A stretch of DNA of 24,670 nt. Source: a virus. How positions within the stretch are numbered: position 1 is the first letter of the stretch; every line of letters starts with the position of its first letter. The notes under the pieces were generated by a model that worked only from the letters and a program-made list of their open reading frames with translations, was not told the origin of the DNA and searched no databases. The stretch lies in IMG/VR virus record IMGVR_UViG_3300010938_000131, positions 1-24,670 of that record. One strand, 5' to 3'. Shown in pieces: positions 242 through 14,994 of this stretch. Both the position numbers and the translations under genes were made by a program.

Positions 242-961
242 ATGAAAGAAACCATCACAATCGCAGTGCCCACCCTTGACGGACGACCTGAGTTAGATTT
301 CACAACCTCTGTGACTCAGGCTATGCTTACCTCCAAATATACATCACCACGCATACGATATGGTGTGGGTGATAGTCTGGTAGAGAGAGCAAGGCAAAAC
401 CTATTGCGAGACTGGTATTACGATACCACAGACCGTATTATTGTTTGGCTTGATAGCGACATTGGATTTCACGGCCAACAGAACTTTTTGGACTTGATGT
501 ACGAAGATTTGCGACTCGCTGATGTGGATTTTGTGGGCGGGCTTTATGCTTGCAAGGGGCCGCAAACTCAGTGCTCGTCAGTGATAGAATCACCACGGGT
601 TACGCATGAGAGCAACAAATACATGGTGGCAATGCGGTGGCTCTCTACTGGGTGCTGGGCGATAACAAGAGATAGTGTGACACAAATGATTGAAACATTT
701 CCAGAACTGGAGTACGAGACAGACATACATCGCAAACTTGCCCACGCATTGTTTTTGCCTATGCTCTACGAGGTGCGAGACAATCCTGACGACGTGTGGC
801 AAAAACTACTCAGTGAGGACTGGGCATTTTGCGAGCGATGGAAACGAGCAAATCCTGGGAAAAAGATATGGGCAGACACGCGGATAATCACCGTACATTG
901 GGGCAAATATCCTTTCCGTCTGCCCACGTCTGATTCTGAGCCTAAGCCGTCTTGCGAGTGA
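242..961 (+). CDS. GT-A-type glycosyltransferase, phage family
   Basis: A 239-residue protein probably transferring a sugar from a nucleotide-sugar donor. It starts with a strand and loop typical of GT-A folds (ITIAVPTLDGRP, residues 5-16) and has a helix with RARQNLLRDW (49-58). The metal-binding DxD motif, DSD, lies at residues 71-73 inside IIVWLDSDIGF. GGLYACK (99-105), SEDWAFCERW (191-200) and a terminal TVHWG (217-221) complete the pattern of phage-encoded glycosyltransferases with an acidic catalytic box and a late metal-ligand histidine. The start has AAGGAG six bases upstream, just after a small CCTGC/GCAGG hairpin at 217-229. It is the last gene of the rightward unit and its 3' end overlaps the convergent primase gene by 20 bases. 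The acceptor is unknown: virion protein, cell-surface glycan or DNA are all possible. Confidence 0.75.
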   Translation: MKETITIAVPTLDGRPELDFTTSVTQAMLTSKYTSPRIRYGVGDSLVERARQNLLRDWYYDTTDRIIVWLDSDIGFHGQQNFLDLMYEDLRLADVDFVGGLYACKGPQTQCSSVIESPRVTHESNKYMVAMRWLSTGCWAITRDSVTQMIETFPELEYETDIHRKLAHALFLPMLYEVRDNPDDVWQKLLSEDWAFCERWKRANPGKKIWADTRIITVHWGKYPFRLPTSDSEPKPSCE

Positions 962-3209
962 TGTGATAGACTCTTTGATGCCCATGCTTATAGCTTGATT
1001 GCAATAAGTAGCCATCAGGTATGGGTCCTGACGCCAATATGCGTCCCACGGCCACTGAACTCACGGTTTGGTGTAGGCGATTTGACACTAATTCAGCGAT
1101 TTTCGCGGGTGTGCCCTCCACGCTTCCATGCTGGTCAACGTGCTCGATGATTTCCTGGATTATCGGGGACTGGTCTATTGCCGCCTCTTTACGCTTAGAC
1201 GACATCGCTTGCAACGCCTTTAGCATATCTAATCCTGCAATCTGCCCGAACGCAAGAGCAGCCTCATACCACGCAGGATGCCTCACGGCTTCGGGGTATA
1301 TAGGCCACGCAAGCATACGCAACATATGATGCCACACGGTTGCTATCCACGATAGCACAGCATCGCGCTTTTCTCGGACTTCAGCCAGCAATACATCATC
1401 AGAGATATTAAGCGTGCGCCTCTGTACACAGACCATTATCATTCGGTCTGTAACCGCCGCGTCCCTCAAGTAAGCAGGCGAGACCGATGTTAATAGCATC
1501 CACGCACGCGGTCGAAAACTAATCAGTACATCATTGGTGTACAGCTTCCTACGTTTAACTTCGCCGCCTGTTGTGGCCGATGCGATTGAGTCCGGCAGCC
1601 ACGGAATTGAGCTGTCCGCGTTGTCAAAAACACAGACACCGCCCCTATTAAGCATCATCCAGAATTCATTTTCATCTTGATACTTTATCGCCATTGGTTG
1701 CGACGGAAGCCCCCACAACTCAGCGATTGCACGAGCGGTTAAGGTTTTGCCTGAACCCGGCACGCCATAAAGCATGATAGGCGGCTTGCTATCTATGTTA
1801 TGTACCACAAGACTTGCAGCCGCAAGCAGCAGTGCAGTATCACTGTCGTCTTGCGCGGATATTTGCATGGCCCGCAAAGCGCGCGGTGACAGTTGCTGGG
1901 ATGTATCAGATATGTACTGCCATTTCTGGCACACCGCCTCAGATGCAAAATATATCTCGTCTGTGCCGTTAGGCAACACATCAATACCTGAGTCCGTAAT
2001 GCGCACCATCTCATCAGGGCCGCATGAAATATACACTGCTGACGGCTTGTAATTATTTCCCACAACATGCCAGCACCGTGCGGGGCGAATAGGATTACGC
2101 ATTGCAGACCGCATCACGCGGTCATGTATTTGGGACCATCCCGTGTCCGACGGAGCATATCCCCACATATCAGCCCACACACGCATTGCGGTAATATCAT
2201 CTTGATTCACGCGACGCAGGATATGCTCGTGATTAAGTACATAATACATCGCGGTCTGGTCATCGGCATCCACACCTAGTATGCCCAGCTTGCCCATTGC
2301 ATCTGTAATCACCGATGCTATGGCGTCGTATTTGGTTGATAGGTCATCATCGCCAGTGCGGATGGCAAATATGTCTGATTTTGCCGTTGCAAGGACGTCA
2401 TCAGGATTGGCAGAGCTAAGGCGCGAGATAGCATCTTGAATTAGTGTATTAACATCAGCTCCCGTTGCGCCCGCTGCAACCCAGTCGGACACGTCCTTGA
2501 CGGGTGTGCCGTTGTGTGTTTCAGGCAGTTGTGCAATTGTTGCGTGAGCTCCAACAGACCTGAGCGCACGCTGCACCGCGTTGGCATACTGCATACCTGG
2601 CTCATCGGCATCGGGAATAATTACCACCGTTGCATCCGCGAGCGGGGCAACAACGTCACGGTCTATTTTTTGCTTTGCCCCGCCCGCCGTGGTGGTGCTT
2701 ACAAACCCTAACGACTCCAGCGTGTGCACGTCTTTTTCACCTTCAACCCAGATTATGGGTTTACCCTCAGCTACAGCTTGAGCGATTTTGGGTAAGCGAT
2801 ATAGCACACGTTGCACGCCTTTTGTACTCCATGTCCACGTGCCTGGCTTTGCACCTGGCTTGCGTTGCCGAAAAGATTTTGGCTCGTACCTGATAACCTG
2901 ATATATTAATTCGCCGGTCGCAGTCGTGTAATCGTATGTTGCCACGATACGGCCCTTAGCCTCATCAGCATCGTCTGTTGCTCCGCGCAAGTCTAGGTCA
3001 GACCAGCGCAGGCCAGCGGCTGACAGGATTGTTTCTGGGTCGCAGCCCGCGTGGCAGTGCACTAGGATTTTGTCCTGCTCCACCTTGAGCGATAGTGACG
3101 GATTGCGGTCTTCGTGTGCCGGACATCGGGCACTGTACTGGTCGTCACCAACCTTAGAGACACGCTCTAGTGCGTGTAGTACCTTTTGTATTTTGTCTTG
3201 TTTTGTCAT
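942..3209 (-). CDS. Primase-helicase: zinc finger, TOPRIM, AAA ATPase
   Basis: A 755-residue replication protein that probably makes primers and unwinds DNA at the phage origin. Domains in order are a CHC2-like zinc finger (C29, H32, C52, C56 in RCPAHEDRNPS and HCHAGC), a TOPRIM domain with VEGEKD (155-160) and IIPDADEPG (197-205), a linker, then a P-loop ATPase. The ATPase has Walker A GVPGSGKT (482-489), Walker B VCVFDNAD (525-532) and a candidate arginine finger in TDRM (587-590). The C-terminal 60 residues look like a small DNA-binding helical domain. I chose the ATG at 3209 because it has GGAGGT at ideal spacing and begins just before the zinc finger, as is usual. The frame stays open upstream to an ATG at 3380 and a GTG at 3410, so a form 57-67 residues longer is possible. 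It follows the sigma-like gene in a two-gene leftward unit. The TOPRIM-ATPase fusion is common in phages and satellites. Confidence 0.9.
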   Translation of the reverse strand: MTKQDKIQKVLHALERVSKVGDDQYSARCPAHEDRNPSLSLKVEQDKILVHCHAGCDPETILSAAGLRWSDLDLRGATDDADEAKGRIVATYDYTTATGELIYQVIRYEPKSFRQRKPGAKPGTWTWSTKGVQRVLYRLPKIAQAVAEGKPIIWVEGEKDVHTLESLGFVSTTTAGGAKQKIDRDVVAPLADATVVIIPDADEPGMQYANAVQRALRSVGAHATIAQLPETHNGTPVKDVSDWVAAGATGADVNTLIQDAISRLSSANPDDVLATAKSDIFAIRTGDDDLSTKYDAIASVITDAMGKLGILGVDADDQTAMYYVLNHEHILRRVNQDDITAMRVWADMWGYAPSDTGWSQIHDRVMRSAMRNPIRPARCWHVVGNNYKPSAVYISCGPDEMVRITDSGIDVLPNGTDEIYFASEAVCQKWQYISDTSQQLSPRALRAMQISAQDDSDTALLLAAASLVVHNIDSKPPIMLYGVPGSGKTLTARAIAELWGLPSQPMAIKYQDENEFWMMLNRGGVCVFDNADSSIPWLPDSIASATTGGEVKRRKLYTNDVLISFRPRAWMLLTSVSPAYLRDAAVTDRMIMVCVQRRTLNISDDVLLAEVREKRDAVLSWIATVWHHMLRMLAWPIYPEAVRHPAWYEAALAFGQIAGLDMLKALQAMSSKRKEAAIDQSPIIQEIIEHVDQHGSVEGTPAKIAELVSNRLHQTVSSVAVGRILASGPIPDGYLLQSSYKHGHQRVYHITRKTA

Positions 3210-3384
3210 TTTCTTACCTCCAATTTGTGTTCTCTTGGTTGTACTCTTGATTGTACTCTGGATTTGCCTATTGTTGCCATTAGGATGCCCATTATCGCCC
3301 ATCGAATGCCCATTAGAATTGCCTGGTAAATTTGCCTGCTGTTGCCTGCTGCCATCATTAATAGTTATTTCCGCTATCATATCA
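3210..3384 (-). other. Open, Asn/Gly-rich in-frame stretch before the primase start
   Basis: These 175 bases lie between the sigma-like stop codon and the preferred primase ATG. They contain no stop in the primase frame. If translated from ATG 3380 (GAGGA about ten bases upstream, four bases after the preceding stop), they would add a low-complexity segment with QQQANLPG and repeated NGH/NGN motifs, then a basic Ser/Thr-rich part. At the DNA level ATGGGC-like and GGCAA motifs recur. It could be a disordered N-terminal arm, a spacer, or a leader carrying the strong internal ribosome-binding site. Confidence 0.5.
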
Positions 3385-3756
3385 TCACAATCCTCGCTGC
3401 TCCAACTCACGATATATGTCGTAGGAGTAATCTACCAGCAAATCAGGGTCAAGGTCATCTATGCGCACACACCTGGGCGGCTTGCGCGCCCAGCGTCCGC
3501 TGATTTGCTTGCACTGCATTAGTGCTGATTTATGCGCGGCCCCCAATAACCTGCGCCATAGATATGTTATGAGCTTCGAGCGGTTGGGGTCGTAATCCTG
3601 TAAAGCATCCATGCCAGCGGCCACAGTTGCCGATAGCGTCTCCTCGTAGTCCACGTGACGCGGGTAATGCACTATCACTCGACGCACGATTATGTTTGCC
3701 AGCCTCTTGATTTCTTTTTCGTCTCTGCCCATTTTTATTTCCGTTCGATTCCTCAT
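3385..3756 (-). CDS. Small sigma-70 region 2-like protein
   Basis: A 123-residue protein. Residues about 39-80 (DYEETLSATVAAGMDALQ, then DYDPNRSKLITYLWRRLLGA) match the pattern of sigma-70 region 2, where a DL.QEG..GL..A...FDP.RG..F.TYA pattern binds core RNA polymerase and the -10 element. No region 4 follows, and the rest is a basic then acidic tail. The start at 3756 has AGGAGG eight bases upstream; an alternative ATG at 3732 lacks this. It is the first gene of the leftward unit, behind a candidate promoter at 3846-3874. It may redirect host RNA polymerase to phage promoters, for example the recurring AATAACTATAATT element, or it may be a region-2-derived helical protein without sigma activity. 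Fold recognition is moderately confident; function is inferred. Confidence 0.7.
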   Translation of the reverse strand: MRNRTEIKMGRDEKEIKRLANIIVRRVIVHYPRHVDYEETLSATVAAGMDALQDYDPNRSKLITYLWRRLLGAAHKSALMQCKQISGRWARKPPRCVRIDDLDPDLLVDYSYDIYRELEQRGL

Positions 3757-4391: not shown

Positions 4392-4433
4392 CCTCTTTTG
4401 CCCTCATGGGCAAGACATGGGACAGCCCTAAAA

Positions 4434-4474
4434 GTGTCTCATAGGTGTCTCAAAAGTGTCTCATAAGTGTCTCA
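4434..4474 (+). repeat. Four tandem GTGTCTCA iterons, 11-bp period
   Basis: GTGTCTCA starts at 4434, 4445, 4456 and 4467, exactly 11 bases apart, within units close to AAGTGTCTCAT. The spacing puts each copy on the same face of the helix, as expected for cooperative protein binding. The same core TGTCTCA returns four times at 5027-5085. Confidence 0.85.
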
Positions 4475-6291: not shown

Positions 6292-6300
6292 GACCTTTTT

Positions 6301-6369
6301 AGAAATTCTCGCAAAAAACTGAAAAGTTCTATGGCTGGTAGAAATTCTCACAAAAAACTGAAAAATTCT
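6301..6369 (+). repeat. Pair of 30-bp direct repeats upstream of late region
   Basis: Bases 6301-6330 and 6340-6369 match at 28 of 30 positions, with a nine-base spacer (39-base period). Each begins with the small palindrome AGAAATTCT and ends with a related AAAAGTTCT or AAAAATTCT. They sit between the early terminator and the late leader element, where an activator or repressor of late transcription would bind. Confidence 0.75.
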
Positions 6370-6827: not shown

Positions 6828-8099
6828 ATGCCTGCAACAAAGCCAGTCAAGCGCGAAGTAGTCACCCTGCTGCCGCATCAATACGAGCTAATTAATTGTG
6901 ATGCGCCTCAAGTGCTGTATGTGGGTGGCTATGGTAGCGGCAAGACTAGAGGGCTATGTTATGCTGCAACAGCAGCAGTGGCTGGCAGACCCCATGCTAC
7001 AGTGCTATTGGCACGCATGACTTACACGTCCTTACGGCGTTCTACGCTTAGGACTCTTATCGAATCCGACGGCAATGCGCCTCCGGTGCTCCCTCCCCAT
7101 ACATACGAGTACAAAATTGTCGAGCAACGTATAGATATCTATGGGGGCGGTACGATACTGCTGGCAGGCTTGGAGGACATATTAAGACTAAGGGGCTTAA
7201 GCCTATCTGGTGTGTTTGTGGATGAGGCAATAGAAATCCCCGAATCAATCTGGGACGAGCTAAGAGGACGCTTGCGAAATCCCAGTGCAAGGCACAGGCA
7301 AATCGTAGGCTGTACAAATCCGTCATCGCCATCGCATTGGCTGTATAAGCGATTTTATGCACAAAAGCGGCCAGATTGCAAAGTTATCAAAGCTCCCACG
7401 ACCTCAAATCCTTACTTGCCTGAAGACTATGTAGCACAACTTGAAGCTCTCAAGACCACAGACTTGCCATCATACTTGCGTTACGTGCAAGGCGAATGGG
7501 CGGTAAGCTCGGATTTGATTTTTGCTGATTTGCTTGACGGTGATTTGCCTCATCCGCCGGAAAAGCACGAAATGGATAGGTATGTGCTGGGCGTAGATGC
7601 AGGCTGGACTCACCCTACTGCTGCTATACTATTAGGTTGTTACAGCGGTGCATGGTGGGCCGTAGAGGAGTACACAGCCAGCCGCAAGACACACGACGTC
7701 ATAGCTCGTGAGCTACACCAGGCTTACGGTAAGCTACCTGTGACAGTAATTGTTGACCCATCGGCTCCAGCCCTCATGGAGGCCCTACGCATTGCGGGAT
7801 TTCCCGATGTGCAGGGCGGAAACAATGCGGTGGATTACGGCATAGACGTAATCAGGCGCGATATACATCGGCAAGCCTTAGTAGTTACTACTGCTGTGCC
7901 ATCCCTGGTCAATCAGATGATGTCATATCATAGGGATACTGCTGGAAAACCGGCCAAAATAGCTGATGACCTAGTGGATGCTTTTAGGTATGCCGCCGTG
8001 GCCGTAATGGGCGAATCCTCTGTAGTTAACAAAGGTATTTACATCGCGGTTTTGGGCAAAGAGCGTAGAGATTATGACCCAGATGACAAATTTTGGTGA
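6828..8099 (+). CDS. terL: Terminase large subunit
   Basis: A 423-residue packaging motor that drives DNA into the prohead and cuts it. The N-terminal ATPase has Walker A GGYGSGKT (33-40), Walker B VFVDEA (129-134) and the coupling motif GCTNPS (161-166). The C-terminal RNase H-like nuclease has its acidic residues in GVDAGW (D257), VIVDPSA (D310) and DDLVDAFRYA (D381/D384). Length and motifs are normal for the family. It follows the presumed small subunit and precedes portal, the standard order. The start lacks an obvious Shine-Dalgarno sequence and is probably reached by coupling from the gene ending five bases upstream. Packaging type (cos or pac) cannot be read from the sequence. Confidence 0.95.
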   Translation: MPATKPVKREVVTLLPHQYELINCDAPQVLYVGGYGSGKTRGLCYAATAAVAGRPHATVLLARMTYTSLRRSTLRTLIESDGNAPPVLPPHTYEYKIVEQRIDIYGGGTILLAGLEDILRLRGLSLSGVFVDEAIEIPESIWDELRGRLRNPSARHRQIVGCTNPSSPSHWLYKRFYAQKRPDCKVIKAPTTSNPYLPEDYVAQLEALKTTDLPSYLRYVQGEWAVSSDLIFADLLDGDLPHPPEKHEMDRYVLGVDAGWTHPTAAILLGCYSGAWWAVEEYTASRKTHDVIARELHQAYGKLPVTVIVDPSAPALMEALRIAGFPDVQGGNNAVDYGIDVIRRDIHRQALVVTTAVPSLVNQMMSYHRDTAGKPAKIADDLVDAFRYAAVAVMGESSVVNKGIYIAVLGKERRDYDPDDKFW

Positions 8100-8108
8100 T
8101 TTTTTGAT

Positions 8109-8146
8109 GTTACAGGAAACAAGTGGGAATAACTATAATTGAGGGG
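8109..8146 (+). promoter_or_regulatory. Late promoter/leader element, copy 2
   Basis: GTTACAG..AA and the exact 20 bases AAGTGGGAATAACTATAATT (8121-8140) recur here, starting ten bases after the terL stop and ending at the portal ribosome-binding site. TATAAT is at 8134-8139. Compared with copy 1, the segment between GTTACA and TATAAT is one base longer. Such identity between two intergenic sites points to a functional element. Confidence 0.55.
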
Positions 8147-8155
8147 CGGAGATAT

Positions 8156-9304
8156 ATGCTGAAAGAATTGTTGCAAAAAATCGTGCAAAAGGCGGTGCCA
8201 TCTGCTGTTGCCTATACTACTGCTACCACGCCTGAAACTCGCGGTCAGGCGTCGGCTGAAACCATTATGCGTCAATACTGCGTACACTGGGCTGCCATTT
8301 GCGCTGGCAAGGTGTCAGAGGCTACGTCCTCATGGCCTATCACGGCCTATCAATCACGCAACAAAGCCGCCCCTCGTCAATTGCCGCTCACGCATGAGAT
8401 ATATCAAGCCCTGCAAAATCCCAATGCGGCTTACACGATGCCGGAAATCATATACATCGTGTCATGGTATCTGCAGTTTGTGGGCACGGCTTTTGTGCAA
8501 TTCAGGGAAGAGGATGGATATGTGCTGCGACCTTTGCTTGCAACAAGAATTATCCCTGATGTTGATTCCAAGGGCAAACCGAGAGCATACAAATACCGTC
8601 CAAACCTTGAAACACAGGAAATCATACCAGCAGACCAGGTGATACTATTCCGGCAGTGCCCTACGCCAGAGAGCGTATGGGGCACGGGCAAAGCAGAGCG
8701 GGTGCTATCGGCAATAGATAGATACACGTCTTATGACAAGGCTGAAGAGAGATTCAATGCAAATTTCGCAAGGCCCGATTTTGCGGTGATTTACCGAGGC
8801 CGTTACTCCACTCAGGAGATGCAGGCCGTGACAAGTGCCTGGGAGCGTAAGTTCTCCCTGCGAGGCAAATCAGCCGGTGCTCCACTGATTACCACTGGAG
8901 ATGTGGATATAAAAAATCTCTCGCTAAGCCCCAAAGATATGATGTGGCAATGGGGTAGAGAGTGGTCCCGCAAAGAGATAGCTGCTGCCTTTGGCGTGCC
9001 GCTTGCTTTGCTTGATACGGGCGACATAGCCTATGCGACTGCTAGAGCCGCACGGGCGCAAATGGATGCTTATGCCGTCAAGCCCTTGATGACTCTGATT
9101 TGCGAGGCCCTTAATAAGCAATTTATCCAGCCTGTTTTTGGCGATAGCTATTATGTGTGGTATGATGACCCACGGAGTGACGAGAAGGCAGAAATCTACA
9201 ACAATCTTGTTAATCTCGTAGTTAATGGAATACTAACAAAAGACGAAGCAAGACAATTGCTCGGTTATGACCCTATGAGTGGCGATGACAAAAATCAGGA
9301 GTAA
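8156..9304 (+). CDS. Portal protein, HK97 family
   Basis: A 382-residue protein forming the dodecameric ring at one capsid vertex, through which DNA passes. Family signs include an N-terminal helical region, central VWGTGKAERVLSAIDRY and the conserved KEIAAAFGVPLALL near residues 279-292, followed by a helical C-terminus ending in LLGYDPMSGD. I chose ATG 8156 (GGAG four bases upstream, GAGGGG further out) over an in-frame GTG at 8123, because that GTG lies inside the conserved leader element. Slightly short for the family, but with no missing part that I can see. It is followed three bases later by the prohead protease. Confidence 0.93.
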   Translation: MLKELLQKIVQKAVPSAVAYTTATTPETRGQASAETIMRQYCVHWAAICAGKVSEATSSWPITAYQSRNKAAPRQLPLTHEIYQALQNPNAAYTMPEIIYIVSWYLQFVGTAFVQFREEDGYVLRPLLATRIIPDVDSKGKPRAYKYRPNLETQEIIPADQVILFRQCPTPESVWGTGKAERVLSAIDRYTSYDKAEERFNANFARPDFAVIYRGRYSTQEMQAVTSAWERKFSLRGKSAGAPLITTGDVDIKNLSLSPKDMMWQWGREWSRKEIAAAFGVPLALLDTGDIAYATARAARAQMDAYAVKPLMTLICEALNKQFIQPVFGDSYYVWYDDPRSDEKAEIYNNLVNLVVNGILTKDEARQLLGYDPMSGDDKNQE

Positions 9305-9307
9305 ATT

Positions 9308-10201
9308 ATGCCAGACCAAGAAATACAACATATAGTTTCGGGCGAATTGATTTCCAAGTCTGCTGGTGATAACGAAAACAAAACTATATCGGCAATCATC
9401 ACACGTCGTGTTGTGGATAGGGACAGGGAAGTGATAGAGCCAACGGGTATTAAGATTGACAAGTTTCTCGAAAATCCAGTATTGCTTTGGTCTCATGTGA
9501 GACAACAGCCGCCCGTAGGGCGTGTGGAAAACTTGCGACTATCCGAAGATAAGTCGGCTATAGTCGCTGACCTTATTTTTGCCGAAACCCCTGCGGCTTT
9601 AGAAATTGCAAACCTTGTTAAGTCAGGATTTTTGCGGGGCGTATCAATCGGCATCGCCGCAAAAAAAAGAATTGCAAAGGGTACTAAAGAGTATGATGAT
9701 TACATTGCAAAGTATCCGTCAACGGCTGGGGCTGTGTCAATAATTACTGAATCAGAGTTGTGGGAATTGTCGGTGTGCACCATTCCTGCCAATCAGGATG
9801 CTTTGATTTTGCGCGCTCAAAGTGATGCAGAGATGGATATGTACGGCGCAATGGTGGCGTCTATGATTGAGGGCAAGGGGCTGGAGTACAAGCCTTATCC
9901 TCACGAGCATGCCGCAAGGCAATTGCCGCCAGATATTTTTGATAGTTTTCGGCGGGTTAACAATATGTTTGGCGATGGGATTGATGTAATCTTTGGACGG
10001 CTGAAAGAATCCCGCAAATGGGCAATACAGTCTATTCGATTTGATGCGACTAAGTGGACAGTAGAGGCGGCTAAAAAGTGGCTAAAAGACCACGGCTACA
10101 AAGACGATGTCGAGCCAGCCAAGCCGGAAAAATCTGCTGATGTGACAGAAATCAAAGGTGTGGAAATCAAAGGCAAATGGGAGGTAGTGCATGAAAATTA
10201 A
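9308..10201 (+). CDS. HK97-type prohead protease with extra C-terminal domain
   Basis: A 297-residue serine protease (peptidase U35-like) that matures the prohead by cutting capsid N-terminal arms. The catalytic histidine is in LLWSHVRQ (H63) and the serine in RGVSIG (S113), with ELWELSVCTIPANQDA (150-165) typical of the family. The protease ends near residue 170. A further domain (about 198-265) contains PHEHAARQLPP, IDVIFGRLK and KWTVEAAKKWLKDHGY, a module also met in other phage and prophage proteins. A charged tail follows. AGGAG upstream overlaps the portal stop. It overlaps the capsid start by 11 bases. Confidence 0.92.
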   Translation: MPDQEIQHIVSGELISKSAGDNENKTISAIITRRVVDRDREVIEPTGIKIDKFLENPVLLWSHVRQQPPVGRVENLRLSEDKSAIVADLIFAETPAALEIANLVKSGFLRGVSIGIAAKKRIAKGTKEYDDYIAKYPSTAGAVSIITESELWELSVCTIPANQDALILRAQSDAEMDMYGAMVASMIEGKGLEYKPYPHEHAARQLPPDIFDSFRRVNNMFGDGIDVIFGRLKESRKWAIQSIRFDATKWTVEAAKKWLKDHGYKDDVEPAKPEKSADVTEIKGVEIKGKWEVVHEN

Positions 10202-11327
10202 ACTGTTGGCTGATGTGAACAACACGTCGGCGGGTAGTATCGTGATTTGCGATGACAATGTAGGGCAGCAACTGATTGCGGATAAGCAGGCTGTGGAGTA
10301 TGTGGAAAAATCTAACGTGGAGGAAAAAAACATGGAACAGATTAAGGGTAAAGCTGAGGATTCTCTGGGTGTTGCGGTTAAGAAAGTTATTGATGGCGAA
10401 TTGTCTTCGCTTGTTGTCAAGGCTCCGTCTGGAATTAATGAATCAACTGATGCTGATGGCGGCTATCTTGTCACTCAGCCGGTTGCCGACAAACTTTTCG
10501 GCGCGGCTTTTTCTGGTGCTGTGATTTACCCGAAGTGCGCCAAACTGCCGGTGCCTGATAAGGCTAATGGCCTTAAGGTATCATATCTGGCGCACAATAC
10601 GGTCACTCGCACAAGCACTCCAAGGGGCTACTGGCTATCTGAGGGCGGCCAGAAAACTGCGACTAAGTTTACGTTTGGGTCGCACACGCTTAATCTCGGC
10701 AAGTTGGTGTTTTATGTGCCGATGACAGACGAGATTATGGAGGATGCCCCGCTGCTGGAGCAGTATGTAATCTCGCAGGTCAAGGGTCGCATCGGGTGGA
10801 TGCTTGATGATGCAATTCTTAATCTGTCCACGGCCACGTCCGGCATGATGGGCATTTTTGATGCCGGTTCTGTCGCGTTTCTAGCGACTCCGGCTGCGTC
10901 TGCGTCCACGGCTGCGTATCTGGTTAGTCTGTATTCCGGCGTCATGCCGTCACTGCGTGGTAGTGCGGAGTGGTACATGAGCAACGCTCGCTGGCAGACT
11001 CTGATTGCCGCTGTTGGTGCTGGCACCACGGCATCGCCTATGCCTATTGTTGATGTTGCGGGCAAAACTATCCTTGGCCGTCCGGTTAATGTGATGGAAC
11101 AGATGGCCGCAACGGGTAGTGCTGGTGACATACTGTTTGGCGATTTTGCCAACGGCTATGCGGTGCTCGAAAAAGGCGAACTCGAAATCAGCATGTCCAA
11201 GGATGTGCGGTTTGAATATGACGAGACGGTTCTTAGGTTTGTGTTGAGGGTCGCCGGTGCGCCGGTGATTGCCAAGGTCACGTTGCCTGATGGCAGTGTG
11301 GTTGGCGCGTTCTCGACTCATAGCTGA
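10191..11327 (+). CDS. Major capsid protein, HK97 fold, with fused N-terminal module
   Basis: A 378-residue HK97-fold capsid subunit. Residues 1-45 (KIKLLADVNNTSAG, then VGQQLIADKQAVEYV) resemble the free-standing small proteins often found beside phage capsid genes, and here they are in frame with the capsid. An internal ATG at 10332 (residue 48) has its own strong GGAGG eight bases upstream and would give a 331-residue capsid beginning MEQIKGKAED. Residues 48-77 would be a short delta-like arm. The mature body starts around KAPSGINEST, with ADGGYLV (88-94) and the expected P-domain and A-domain sequence to GDFANGYAVLEKGELEI. Both starts look usable. A second capsid-like gene follows 85 bases later. 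Confidence 0.93.
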   Translation: MKIKLLADVNNTSAGSIVICDDNVGQQLIADKQAVEYVEKSNVEEKNMEQIKGKAEDSLGVAVKKVIDGELSSLVVKAPSGINESTDADGGYLVTQPVADKLFGAAFSGAVIYPKCAKLPVPDKANGLKVSYLAHNTVTRTSTPRGYWLSEGGQKTATKFTFGSHTLNLGKLVFYVPMTDEIMEDAPLLEQYVISQVKGRIGWMLDDAILNLSTATSGMMGIFDAGSVAFLATPAASASTAAYLVSLYSGVMPSLRGSAEWYMSNARWQTLIAAVGAGTTASPMPIVDVAGKTILGRPVNVMEQMAATGSAGDILFGDFANGYAVLEKGELEISMSKDVRFEYDETVLRFVLRVAGAPVIAKVTLPDGSVVGAFSTHS

Positions 11328-11348
11328 TAGTACATAACAAAAACTCTC

Positions 11349-11382
11349 GTGTGGGCTTTGGTTTTGATACTGAGGCCCACAC
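11349..11382 (+). promoter_or_regulatory. Hairpin between the two capsid genes
   Basis: GTGTGGGC (11349-11356) and GCCCACAC (11375-11382) form a perfect eight-pair stem with an 18-base loop. No T tract follows, so it is not a normal terminator. It may stabilise the 3' end of the major capsid message or set the ratio of the two capsid products. Confidence 0.55.
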
Positions 11383-11412
11383 ACCTGGGTCAGGAAGCAG
11401 GAGGAAAAAACA

Positions 11413-12372
11413 ATGGAATTCAAGGAAATATGCCAGATTTTGCGCAAAAGCCCGTCGGGCATTAACGAGCTATCGGACTCGCAAGGCGGATACTGTGTAT
11501 CCACCGAGTTGTCCGAGGCTATTACTCAGGACATGATATATGCCTCGCCGCTGGTGTCGAGTGTCAAGATTGCGCCAGCTTCCGGCGGCGTGGTGCAGTT
11601 GCATCGTCTAATTGATGAGAATGGCTACAGGGCTGGAGTATATTGGGTCGGAGAGGGCGACCAAAAGACTCCTGATTACCCCAGATTTTCAGGCAGAGTG
11701 AGCAGGCTGCACAAACTTGTTGCATTAATACCTGTAACAGAAGAAATACTTAATGACAACGAGCGCATGGTGTATGAGTATACCAGGGGCTATCTGGTCG
11801 AGCATTACACCAGAGCACTTGAGTCGGCTATTGTTTCCGGCAACGGAAATTACACCATACACGGCATTGCAAATACCGGCTCGCAGTCCACTGTTACTGT
11901 TACAACGCCTAACCCGCTTACCGCCAATGCGCTGAGGCTTTATGTTGATTCTCTTTCGCCAACAGCCAAAAATGCAGCATGGTTTGTTTCAAAAACTAGA
12001 TATGGCGAGATACTTGACCTGATTGCGTCAGGTGCTTTGCCGGTGGCTGTCTGCAATTATGAGGCTGGGGCATTGTGGCTATATGGCCGTCGAGTATATG
12101 AGCTTGGGTCGCTGGCAAGTCCAGTGGATATTATACTTGGTGATTTTTCGCACTATCTGCTTGCCGTGCGTGGATTGCAAAGCGACCGTATGGAGTCTGC
12201 AATCAAAATCGAAGTCGGACTCAAATACCAGACAGACGAGAAACTGCTAAGATGTGTAATCAGGATGCAGGGTGATGCTACCACAATTACGACCAAGCTG
12301 CCTGATGACCCCGCGCGGGTTGTTGGCAGCTTTGTGGTGCCCTATGTGTCCCATGGAGGTACATCGGTGTGA
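11413..12372 (+). CDS. Second HK97-fold capsid paralogue
   Basis: A 319-residue protein that aligns with the preceding capsid along most of its length. KSPSGINELSDSQGGYCV (12-29) matches KAPSGINESTDADGGYLV, YWVGEGDQKTP matches YWLSEGGQKTA, LVALIPVTEEIL matches LVFYVPMTDEIM, and ILGDFSHYLLAVRG matches ILFGDFANGYAVLEKG. It starts almost at the presumed mature end of the first capsid, with only about 11 residues ahead of the shared motif, so it lacks a delta/scaffold arm. AGGAGG lies eight bases before the ATG. It may be a minor capsid subunit such as a vertex protein, or a co-assembling partner. It overlaps the connector gene by four bases (GTGA). Confidence 0.88.
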   Translation: MEFKEICQILRKSPSGINELSDSQGGYCVSTELSEAITQDMIYASPLVSSVKIAPASGGVVQLHRLIDENGYRAGVYWVGEGDQKTPDYPRFSGRVSRLHKLVALIPVTEEILNDNERMVYEYTRGYLVEHYTRALESAIVSGNGNYTIHGIANTGSQSTVTVTTPNPLTANALRLYVDSLSPTAKNAAWFVSKTRYGEILDLIASGALPVAVCNYEAGALWLYGRRVYELGSLASPVDIILGDFSHYLLAVRGLQSDRMESAIKIEVGLKYQTDEKLLRCVIRMQGDATTITTKLPDDPARVVGSFVVPYVSHGGTSV

Positions 12373-13181
12373 TTATCACCATAGCCGAATATAAAAGTAT
12401 CTATGGCGGCAATCAGCCTGACGCATACTACGAGTCATTGCTATGGGCGGCTCAAGATGCAGTAGAGTGGTATTGCGACCGCAAGTTTGAGGCTGCTGAT
12501 TATGCTGAGCAGGCGCAAGTTTGCGGCTCAAATCGTGTTGCCGTAAAGCAGTATCCTGTCCAGGTCATACAGAGCATTGCCGAAATCAAACAAATCACAC
12601 CAGTAGATACATCGGGCAATGTGTTTTCGATTGCTATAAGCAATCTGGATAGTATTGCCGTGGTGGTTTCAAACGGCAATACCGAGAGTGTGGACATATC
12701 AAACACCAACACAATAGGCGATGTTGTTGACGCCCTTAATGCTGCCGGATATGAGATGACAATAGATGCTGATGACAGAGTATGGCCTAAGGCATATATC
12801 CAGTATCCCACGGCTGGAGCGATTGAATATGCCGCTCCAATCTTAAATATCTCTGCGGCAATAGACATACTAGACATGCCTATACTGTGGCTTGACCGGT
12901 CGTTGTGGGGCAAATATGTCATACGATACAGAGCAGGATATGAGGCCGATGATATGCCCTATGCTCTCAAGCAAATCGTGGCTGATATGGTTAATAGCAT
13001 GATTACCACTATCACCACACAAGGCGGCGGCATACTTACACACGAAAAAATCACAAACTACGAGTACACAATCAGCCCAGACAGGGCAATGAGATTCCGG
13101 CAGCTTGCAGGCACTACTTTTGCCGATGCGTTGGAGAGTTTTCGGCGCAAGCCCTTAATGGGATTGTGGTATGAAACATGA
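12369..13181 (+). CDS. Head-tail connector, gp6-like
   Basis: A 270-residue protein starting at GTG in a GTGA overlap with the capsid paralogue. The N-terminal IAEYKSIYGGNQPDAYYESLL, AVEWYCDRKFE and the C-terminal IRYRAGYEADDMPYALKQIVADMVNSM follow the pattern of HK97 gp6-like adaptors, which form the ring below the portal. A beta-rich middle insert (about residues 75-150, with SIAVVVSNGNTESVDIS) is larger than in typical gp6 proteins of about 100-200 residues. The insert resembles the small adhesion-like domains sometimes placed in connectors. The gene overlaps the next by ATGA. Confidence 0.8.
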   Translation: MIITIAEYKSIYGGNQPDAYYESLLWAAQDAVEWYCDRKFEAADYAEQAQVCGSNRVAVKQYPVQVIQSIAEIKQITPVDTSGNVFSIAISNLDSIAVVVSNGNTESVDISNTNTIGDVVDALNAAGYEMTIDADDRVWPKAYIQYPTAGAIEYAAPILNISAAIDILDMPILWLDRSLWGKYVIRYRAGYEADDMPYALKQIVADMVNSMITTITTQGGGILTHEKITNYEYTISPDRAMRFRQLAGTTFADALESFRRKPLMGLWYET

Positions 13182-13909
13182 ATCCAAAGATAGCCATAGG
13201 TATTGCCACGAGGCCAGAGAGAGAGGCGGGGGCGATAGGTGTTATCAAATCACTAGCCTCTCAAGCTGATGTAATCGTGGCCTGTCTTAATGGCTACAAG
13301 GCTGTGCCAGAGGCTATAGCTCATTTGCCAAATGTCCATGCTATAATACCCCAAAAAGACTATGGAGCAGGCGGAAAGTTTCTGGTTTTCAAAGAGTGCC
13401 CTGGTGCTGAGTATATCCTGACTGTTGATGATGACATATATTACCCGCCAACATATGTCTTTGCTTTGCGGTATGCTTACCAGCTAGTTGCAGGCATGGG
13501 AGGGTGTATAGGCTCGCTTTGGGGCATTATTGTCACTCCACAGGCAGAGCAATTGCCAGCAGATGCAGGTTATGATGATGTAAGGGCTGTGTGTAAGATT
13601 TGTGGCTTTGGTTTTCCAGTTTCCAATCCCACAAGGATACATATACCAGGGACAGGAGTTATGATAGTGGCTCCTGCCTTTGTGCCCTTGCCTTGGCAGA
13701 AAATCATCAAATACAAGATAGGCACTGATTTGGCTGTGGGTGAAATGGCAAAAAAACACAATATCTCCTGCTGGCATTTGAGCTTGCCTTTGGGAGTGAT
13801 AGGCAGTCGTGCTGAGGCTCAGATATTGCCCATACACCAGACTCAAAAATGGCAAGATAGAGTTAGAGATTGTATATTGCGAAACAGACCCTGGGAGCAC
13901 CTATGTTAA
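13178..13909 (+). CDS. GT-A-like glycosyltransferase inside the head-tail operon
   Basis: A 243-residue protein with the outline of a GT-A nucleotide-sugar transferase. An N-terminal strand-loop (IAIGIATRPEREAG, residues 5-18) and helix are followed by ADVIVACLNGY and by the metal site LTVDDDIYYPPTYV (DDD at 84-86), a form common in family-2-like enzymes. GTGVMIVAP and a late acidic segment with TDLAVGEMAKKH may form the acceptor side. It starts in an ATGA overlap with the connector gene, so it is translationally coupled to virion genes. This suggests that the acceptor is a structural protein, though a host glycan is also possible. It differs from the 242-961 enzyme. Confidence 0.75.
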   Translation: MNPKIAIGIATRPEREAGAIGVIKSLASQADVIVACLNGYKAVPEAIAHLPNVHAIIPQKDYGAGGKFLVFKECPGAEYILTVDDDIYYPPTYVFALRYAYQLVAGMGGCIGSLWGIIVTPQAEQLPADAGYDDVRAVCKICGFGFPVSNPTRIHIPGTGVMIVAPAFVPLPWQKIIKYKIGTDLAVGEMAKKHNISCWHLSLPLGVIGSRAEAQILPIHQTQKWQDRVRDCILRNRPWEHLC

Positions 13910-14994
13910 TTGCATCTCCATTGTTGATAATCGCTTCGGACAATCCGCCCTTGCGTGAGATAGAGAGCACTTACCACGCGGACGTATGGTATTATGTGAG
14001 TGCTTTGGATGGCAACACAAGGCCCTTAGAGCAGCTAGAACAAGACCTTAAGACACTGCCTACACAGGCCACTATATGGCTGGATACGGATTTTGTGGGT
14101 GAAGCAAATGTCCTCAGGCTCGTGAGGGCTACATATTTGCCGCCAACGAGCTTGTCACGGCAGCATGTGATATATCTCACTCGATTGCCCGATACAGTCA
14201 AGGCTCAGCTGGATACCATGCCTGCTGTAGGCAGATATGCCCAGTATCGCGTGACAGAATCTAACGGCGTATATTGTATTAAGTGCTGGAGACGCCCTAA
14301 AGAACGCCTGAGACCATATAAGTTGTCGGCAAATAACGCGCAACATATCATGCGCATCATAAGCTCAGAGGCTGTAGGCGAGCTTTGCGCTGATGCTATA
14401 GTGCGCGGGGCTGGATTTGCAGTTGTGCGCATGGGCGATGGCGAAGCGGAATTGTTGCGTGCAAGGGTTACGCCAGGCTATGTGCCGTGGTTTTGGCAAG
14501 ATGCGGGTTGGCGTAGCAAGTACGGCGTAGATGGGATGGATTTGATTGATTGTGCTGAGAGAGTATATGCCGCTGGCATTGGGGCTGATGTTATCGGCAT
14601 CAACTTGCTGGGCTTGTATGACGAGTCATGGGCGGCTTGGCGATATTTGCCGCCTAACAGGCGGTATTGCGACCAGTATGTGCATATCCATATTGCTGCC
14701 ACCGGCACGCTCACAAGGCTTGCAGGGCTTGCCAAAACCGCAATAATCCACAGAGAGGCGGCCAAGCTGGTTCAGGAGTTCTCGCGCAAGTTCCGCGCGC
14801 TCAAGCCGGTGCCCATAGTCTGCAACTCATGGCGCGACCATGACAAGGTTTACGAGCAGGCAAAACAGAGCGGATGTAAGTTGTTTTTGATTTCGGTGGG
14901 AGCTGCTGGAAAAGCGTTAGGGGTCAAAATTGCCAAGGAGCTATCGGCGGTGGTGCTGGATTGCGGCGAGGCTATGGGAGGATGGTATTTGTGA
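13903..14994 (+). CDS. Glycosyltransferase with GT-D-like C-terminal domain
   Basis: A 363-residue, two-part protein. Residues 1-130 form an alpha/beta domain with TIWLDTDFVGEAN (DTD at 61-63), possibly a GT-A-like half. Residues about 145-363 match the GT-D fold (DUF1792 type): GFAVVRMGDGEAELLRA carries the characteristic DGE (179-181), and the end FLISVGAAGKALGVKIAKEL followed by VVLDCGEAMGG is the family's C-terminal signature. I chose ATG 13903 with GGAG five bases upstream; an in-frame TTG at 13870 lies within the previous gene. It overlaps both neighbours by a few bases, so it is a coupled partner of the 13178 enzyme. Together they could build a two-sugar modification. Confidence 0.75.
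   Translation: MLIASPLLIIASDNPPLREIESTYHADVWYYVSALDGNTRPLEQLEQDLKTLPTQATIWLDTDFVGEANVLRLVRATYLPPTSLSRQHVIYLTRLPDTVKAQLDTMPAVGRYAQYRVTESNGVYCIKCWRRPKERLRPYKLSANNAQHIMRIISSEAVGELCADAIVRGAGFAVVRMGDGEAELLRARVTPGYVPWFWQDAGWRSKYGVDGMDLIDCAERVYAAGIGADVIGINLLGLYDESWAAWRYLPPNRRYCDQYVHIHIAATGTLTRLAGLAKTAIIHREAAKLVQEFSRKFRALKPVPIVCNSWRDHDKVYEQAKQSGCKLFLISVGAAGKALGVKIAKELSAVVLDCGEAMGGWYL

Follow-up and report, generated by a model that had tools for sequence, protein, structure and literature searches.

The 24,670-nucleotide stretch of viral DNA analyzed here (IMG/VR record IMGVR_UViG_3300010938_000131, positions 1 to 24,670; henceforth the window) carries in its head operon two adjacent genes for HK97-type capsid proteins, MCP1 (10191-11327) and MCP2 (11413-12372), which, judging from their tree, descend from an old duplication, and which very probably have different roles in one head. 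An earlier sequence-only reading had placed two capsid frames at these coordinates, and both are there. It had also proposed a capsid gene duplication in a small phage, and what we find are two HK97-fold paralogs, both intact, in a record of 24.7 kb whose ends share a 55-bp direct repeat, which is what a complete genome, circularly permuted or end-repeated, should show.

For both genes, PF05065, PHROG 10 and the predicted fold all agree on an HK97-type capsid protein. The PF05065 match spans the capsid core and scores 130.1 bits for MCP1 and 81 bits for MCP2 (cut-off 24.2 bits), and the E-values to PHROG 10, "major head protein", are 1.6e-34 and 2.3e-17. Aligned to each other, the two proteins share 26% identity over 317 columns (E 4e-25), with the motifs PSGINE, GGY, YWxxEGxQKT, PxTxEI and GDF in a common order, just as the sequence-only reading had listed them. 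An MCP2 query against the whole record finds exactly two places, MCP1 and MCP2 themselves. Structure prediction, proposed as a check for both proteins, gives an HK97-like fold for each. The AlphaFold2 models are of single chains, with input alignments of 31 sequences for MCP2 and 25 for MCP1, taken from the window and from related loci (labeled L and a number below). The MCP2 model (predicted local distance difference test, pLDDT, 78.0; predicted template modeling score, pTM, 0.77) has its best VIA-align match to 9gyi_A, with Z 18.1 and rmsd 3.4 over 247 aligned residues. The MCP1 model (pLDDT 75.2, pTM 0.69) is best matched by 6tb9_A5 (Z 18.0), and it aligns to HK97 prohead I, 8fqk_D, with Z 17.4 and rmsd 3.1 over 245 residues. 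A chance resemblance between MCP1 and MCP2 is ruled out by the alignment E-value together with the HK97-fold models of both.

The two proteins differ in the N-terminal arm, whose length we count to the Lys before a conserved G-x-x-E block. In the window the MCP1 arm has 77 residues, and in MCP2 the aligned Lys is residue 12. Across the group the arms range from 77 to about 121 residues in MCP1 and from 11 to 40 in MCP2. The earlier claim of a second capsid protein that lacks the scaffold arm and starts near the mature N-terminus thus describes the window well, but armlessness this extreme is found only in the window and a few relatives. The Lys precedes the core in 17/17 MCP1 and 13/13 MCP2, a count that is in part a reading by eye: a pattern search chose an upstream Lys in the MCP1 of L011, L047, L048, L050, L069, L071 and L072, and it missed the one in the MCP2 of L069, so we read these positions from the sequences.

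With an arm of 77 residues and a neighboring S78 protease (PF04586, 9.1e-13), MCP1 fits an HK97-type self-scaffolding head. MCP2 does not, as self-scaffolding takes an arm of about 80-120 residues and MCP2 has 12; MCP2 must then rely on the MCP1 arms or need none. By analogy, the protease likely cleaves both proteins after the conserved Lys, since HK97 gp5 loses 103 residues between its full-length (385 residues) and mature (282 residues) solved chains, and since the phi12 and Ccm capsid proteins, introduced below, are cut after K or R.

Is the pair peculiar to this record? We searched viral contigs with each of the two proteins and with alignments of them, and also with an alignment of the portal protein, a search that is blind to capsids. 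The sample has 17 distinct MCP1-type genes, the window included (L051-L055 are near copies of L050 and are not counted). MCP2 comes next after MCP1 in all 13 distinct contigs that reach far enough past MCP1: the window, L005, L011, L012, L044, L045, L048, L049, L050, L067, L069, L081 and L087. For L045 we see by eye in the DNA only the first residues of MCP2 before the contig ends. The other four contigs (L046, L047, L071, L072) end too early past MCP1, and in L071 a GIY-YIG gene fills the DNA that remains. Because it is blind to capsids, the portal scan is the cleanest test of the pair's conservation. Among the loci that it found, L067, L069, L081 and L087 score best against the MCP1 profile and all have an MCP2, whereas L075-L080, L084 and L086 score best against the single-capsid profile and have a capsid alone (L078 is cut at its end).

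The region between the two genes also seems to attract homing genes. An endonuclease gene directly follows MCP1 in three of the 17 contigs (L045:5091-5828, L071:6542-7108 and L081:10493-11035), of the GIY-YIG type in L045 and L071, and in L081 a short frame with a weak HNH-like match; in L045 and L081 it sits between MCP1 and MCP2. Elsewhere in the group, the terminase large subunit frame L049:1009-3516 has an intein-like LAGLIDADG homing endonuclease segment (PF14528 2.8e-7, PF05204 1e-6).

The age of the duplication can be read from a tree of 52 rows: 17 MCP1, 13 MCP2 (from 12 phages, as L067 has two) and 22 single capsids. MCP1 and MCP2 group together against the 22 single capsids (support 100/99), and the 13 MCP2 form one clade (99/94), so that the duplication, on the evidence of these sequences, is old. 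Among the 17 MCP1 there are two supported groups; a single MCP1 clade appears in 10% of bootstrap trees. An earlier tree of 36 rows had the same outline, with lower support for MCP2 (82/90). Left out were 22 further single-capsid loci that were near copies, fragments or remote (L015, L016, L018, L020, L023, L024, L026-L030, L034-L036, L038, L040-L043, L077, L078, L080). The grouping of MCP2 with MCP1 is a statement about these 52 rows, which include no T4-like sequences. The tree rejects a recent or lineage-specific duplication. Nor does it favor a horizontal acquisition of MCP2 from a single-capsid phage, as the paralogs group together against the 22 single capsids, which are of our own choosing.

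The same subgroups recur in both paralogs (L049 with L050, L005 with L011, L067 with L069), as expected if MCP1 and MCP2 have traveled together. Identities between phages correlate with r 0.87 for the two proteins (28 pairs from 8 phages); their means are 37.6% for MCP1 and 35.0% for MCP2, and MCP1 is the more alike in 18 of the 28 pairs. Coding comparisons indicate that both paralogs are under purifying selection in the relatives. Between L005 and L011 the proportion of synonymous differences (pS) is 0.77 in both genes, and that of nonsynonymous differences (pN) is 0.15 in MCP1 and 0.16 in MCP2; between L049 and L050 the ratio of nonsynonymous to synonymous rates (dN/dS) is 0.30 for MCP1 and 0.17 for MCP2. 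The pair L050/L054 is too close to tell selection.

A hairpin separates the two genes. In the window, the region 11325-11412 folds with a minimum free energy of -28.6 (z -3.3 to -3.7). As a measure across loci we use z ≤ -3 over the 100 nt after the stop codon, which is reached after 12/15 MCP1, compared to 1/7 MCP2, 1/9 proteases and 3/17 single capsids (Fisher p 0.001 for MCP1 against single capsids). The stem runs into a T-rich stretch, the layout of an intrinsic terminator, in L011, L012, L044, L048, L049, L050, L067, L069, L072 and L087; a consensus terminator scan of the window does not list the MCP1-MCP2 hairpin. The simplest reading of this arrangement would be that MCP1 is expressed above MCP2, because the hairpin lies between them, and that MCP2 is grouped with the neck genes.

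The paralogs also differ at their C-terminal ends. A Ser-rich stretch, with 23 to 37 Ser per 40 residues, is present in 12 of the 13 MCP2, the window MCP2 being the sole exception, and in none of the 17 MCP1, where the maximum is 8 Ser per 40 residues. (L067 has a broken MCP2 copy, which was scored by its second piece.) The MCP2 tails of L011 and L081 end in a Cys-containing segment. In the stretch L067:8989-14313, a second MCP2-type gene lies downstream of the neck genes, and in it a Ser-rich linker leads to a lectin-like C-terminal Laminin_G_3 domain (2.8e-14); its frame is unbroken and runs to the end of the locus, while the first copy is broken by an in-frame TGA.

Similar Ser-rich C-terminal parts occur in head-closure or tail-terminator (neck) proteins of L005, L044, L049, L050, L054 and L067, in some of them with a small segment containing Cys behind it, which gives the impression of a single display cassette that has spread over several virion proteins. 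The window proteins are without such a stretch.

How might such a head be put together? We propose that it would be built from two HK97-fold subunits that arose by the old duplication. MCP1, with its 77-residue scaffolding arm, would form the hexamers and drive assembly. MCP2, near-armless and probably expressed at a lower level, would enter the shell sub-stoichiometrically and most likely form pentamers at the eleven vertices other than that of the portal. Both proteins would be trimmed after the conserved Lys by the S78 protease, and in most relatives a Ser-rich MCP2 tail, in some with an extra domain, would be displayed wherever MCP2 sits. Unequal roles are supported indirectly, by the arm length, the hairpin and the Ser-rich tails that set MCP1 and MCP2 apart across the group. 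The presence of MCP2 in virions, its stoichiometry, vertex position, cleavage and outward display are what we infer. The specific assignment of MCP1 to hexamers and of MCP2 to the pentamers at eleven vertices, made by analogy with SaPIbov5 Ccm and phi12 CP and with T4 gp24, we regard as an even call. A refit of our own to 32 table rows of PMC8814770 gives a triangulation number T of about 4.84 for this genome size; it decides nothing, and it translates into an expected hexamer:pentamer subunit ratio of roughly 3 to 7.

Several observations weigh against this proposal. We found virion data for no member of the group. A dedicated vertex subunit is not required, because in T4 bypass mutants the main capsid protein can form pentamers alone (PMC3012670), and phi12 without Ccm forms them from its own CP (PMC8569155). 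MCP2 evolves about as fast as MCP1 in the relatives, which is not by itself the mark of a minor part, and the window MCP2 is among the longest branches of the tree (1.6, against 0.49 for the window MCP1). Moreover, the hairpin is weak in L049 (z -1.2), L071 (z -1.8) and L081 (z -2.6), and that of the window, having no T run, may serve RNA stability and not attenuation.

Other arrangements would also use two capsid paralogs. Both could be lattice proteins, sharing mixed hexamers or taking fixed non-vertex positions such as a portal-adjacent ring or the tube of an elongated head. This would sit well with an MCP2 about as conserved as MCP1, and with a genome size that falls between T=4 and T=7 and so allows for a lattice that is unusual or elongated; on the other hand, the shortness of the MCP2 arm and the hairpin behind MCP1 point to MCP2 as a minor component that does not drive assembly, and both of the precedents that we use, T4 gp24 and Ccm, occupy pentamers. 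We consider such a lattice somewhat unlikely. MCP2 could also be mainly a display subunit, an HK97-fold carrier of Ser-rich linkers and binding domains that goes anywhere it fits in the lattice. The restriction of Ser-rich stretches to MCP2 and the lectin-like end of the second L067 copy speak for it, but the window MCP2 is tail-less and yet intact, and display alone leaves the consistently shorter arm unexplained. We consider this reading distinctly unlikely.

That the MCP2 of the window lineage is a redundant copy on its way out appears very unlikely. Its long branch, missing tail and almost missing arm would fit a gene in decay, and one L067 MCP2 is indeed broken. However, the window gene keeps a full-length frame, a strong AGGAGG site, the conserved Lys and core motifs and a confidently predicted fold, and L067 has its second, unbroken frame downstream. 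We give the lowest probability of all to MCP2 as a size or shape switch that chooses between two head forms. Ccm acts in this way on phi12 (PMC8569155), but Ccm is encoded by a parasite, whereas in this group, wherever a member could be checked, the two genes share a single head operon, and a second head form is therefore not expected.

A further elaboration concerns the start of MCP1. Its first 47 residues form a mini-domain weakly like small phage proteins, of which residues 1-38 are a small domain in the AlphaFold2 model (a block with pLDDT 78-88). Weak matches to phrog_2616 were obtained for five of six MCP1 tested, with E-values from 7.8e-5 (L005) to 8.3e-3 (0.0032 for the window), and none for L044, the sixth; matches to DUF7302, found in three of eight tested (0.0027 for the window), are below the curated cut-off. 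Between the mini-domain and the capsid arm, 12 of the 17 distinct MCP1 genes have an in-frame ATG behind a ribosome-site match of at least 5 bases (the window, L005, L011, L012, L044, L045, L067, L069, L071, L072, L081 and L087). The site is absent in L047, L048 and L050, and L046 and L049 have 4-base matches only. Such matches precede 15 of 37 in-frame ATGs in the arms vs. 6 of 168 in the capsid bodies (p 1e-8). When synonymous codons are redrawn over whole arms, the 15 observed are compatible with chance: the redraws average 12.5, and 932 of 5000 get as far as 15, which follows from the many Lys-Glu in the arm. Looking at how Lys-Glu is written, we find AAGGAG at 6 of 11 positions at ribosome-site distance before an ATG vs. 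1 of 40 elsewhere in the arms (p 1.6e-4).

An internal start in MCP1 is on balance likely, and in the window a start at codon 48 would give an MCP1 with a 30-residue arm and an identical mature subunit. One shell could then contain three capsid products, a possibility that we place on the unlikely side: a long MCP1 with mini-domain and arm, a short MCP1 that would be identical to it after cleavage, and MCP2, which would both occupy the vertices and serve for display. The proportion of long arms to short ones would set the amount of scaffold in a small head, and MCP2 would close the vertices and, in most members, present Ser-linked binding domains there.

Division of labor between capsid paralogs is known already. 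In T4, the example named by the sequence-only reading, gp23 makes the hexagonal lattice and gp24 the pentamers at eleven vertices (PMC3012670), and as here two related HK97-fold proteins are found within one phage. T4 differs by its separate scaffolding core and its elongated head of 120 x 86 nm (PMC3012670); here the scaffold is an arm fused to MCP1, the protease is of the S78 type and the genome has 24.7 kb. The likeness drawn here between gp24 and MCP2 is one of arrangement. Closer than T4, and the nearest described anatomy, is that of Ccm, encoded by SaPIbov5, and the capsid protein (CP) of phage phi12. Ccm is 24% identical to phi12 CP and has a shorter N-terminal arm; both have fused delta domains, no separate scaffold and K or R at the P1 position; and cryo-electron microscopy found Ccm in all pentamers and phi12 CP in all hexamers (all PMC8569155). 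On the other hand, Ccm belongs to a parasite, whereas MCP1 and MCP2 are neighbors in the phage's own head operon, and Ccm has 87 residues before its mature start, where MCP2 arms are shorter (11-40).

The capsids of HK97 (gp5), the gene transfer agent (GTA), D3 and EcCI2 have the same fold (Z 15.8-18.1), in HK97 also with a fused and cleaved arm. These shells use one capsid protein for both capsomers. Family 2B encapsulins of Streptomyces lydicus have, by their entry titles, two HK97-fold proteins per shell (Z 16.1 and 15.6 to the MCP2 model); encapsulins, which are nanocompartments of cells, lack a portal, a terminase and a protease. The cyanophage PaV-LD was reported to have two major capsid proteins close together, ORF071R and ORF073R (PMC10343443). 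It is not a precedent, because the two are not paralogs (BLASTP E 1.7): ORF071R matches head maturation proteases (phrog_530, 2.6e-74), and ORF073R a major head protein.

Four capsid queries of an annotated phage collection gave no known phage with the tandem among the matches listed, which report one place per record, the neighboring genes not being read singly. With the MCP1 profile (E 1e-20) we did not find the tandem in samples from two phyla, of 398 and 132 genomes, and a search of a species genome collection with the MCP1 pair did not find it either; an MCP2 scan of that collection turned up three loci with one capsid each by profile. We found no description of such a tandem in small phages in the literature, a weak negative as most subscription journals were not covered. 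In the annotated phage records searched we saw no small phage whose head operon has a natural and ancient tandem built like this one.

The head operon runs from terminase to portal, S78 protease, MCP1, MCP2 and connector (Table 1). The MCP2 frame is open over its full length behind an AGGAGG ribosome site at 8 nt, and the connector start overlaps the MCP2 end by 4 nt. Rfam and tRNA scans of the whole window gave no matches.

Table 1. Coordinates of the head genes and of the capsid features discussed in the text.
Feature	Positions	Strand	Basis
Terminase large subunit	6828..8099	+	PF04466 1.6e-17; phrog_2 2.8e-43
Portal protein	8123..9304	+	PF04860 3.4e-41; family used for the capsid-blind search
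Prohead serine protease (S78)	9308..10201	+	PF04586 9.1e-13; phrog_80 5.2e-24
MCP1, long-armed HK97-fold capsid protein, 378 residues	10191..11327	+	PF05065 1.3e-37
MCP1 N-terminal mini-domain, 47 residues	10191..10331	+	weakly like phrog_2616 / DUF7302
Candidate internal ribosome site and in-frame start	10319..10334	+	GGAGG, 8 nt, ATG codon 48
Lys77 of MCP1, presumed P1 of the cleavage site	10419..10421	+	alignment; by analogy with HK97 and phi12/Ccm
MCP1-MCP2 hairpin	11349..11382	+	14-pair stem, 6-nt loop, no T run
MCP2, short-armed HK97-fold capsid paralog, 319 residues	11413..12372	+	PF05065 1.3e-22
Lys12 of MCP2, aligned with Lys77 of MCP1	11446..11448	+	alignment
Head-tail connector	12369..13181	+	phrog_442 9.4e-15; PF05135 0.0053 (below PF05135 cut-off)

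Also inside the head operon, at 13870-14994, is a GT-D-like protein of glycosyltransferase fold (PF22882 2.8e-15). The frame at 242-961 has a weak Glyco_transf_21 match (0.041), that at 13178-13909 looks by eye like a glycosyltransferase with no profile match, and in L012 a frame without matches, similar in appearance, lies between the protease and MCP1 genes. The products of these genes might glycosylate the virion. On the strand opposite to the virion genes, 942-3410 encodes a primase/helicase-like protein (phrog_6088 2.5e-36; CHC2 zinc finger 6.3e-6). Short tandem repeats in two stretches that lack an evident gene may serve as an origin or in regulation: at 4430-4473 there are three 22-nt copies, 11 nt apart and containing a GTGTCTC motif, and at 6300-6369 two 31-nt copies.

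Large T4-like phages and a parasite of a phage are known to have vertex subunits of their own. The natural tandem described here, with capsid paralogs of which one is nearly scaffold-free, is shared by a diverse group in which one phage has a genome of only 24.7 kb. The presence of Ser-rich tails in MCP2 and not in MCP1 suggests a natural route to display domains from one class of capsomer. And if MCP2 is a vertex protein, these phages would offer a minimal system for asking how pentamers and hexamers are told apart, whether scaffold arms are needed at the 5-fold positions, and by what route the duplication of a capsid gene leads to a division of labor.

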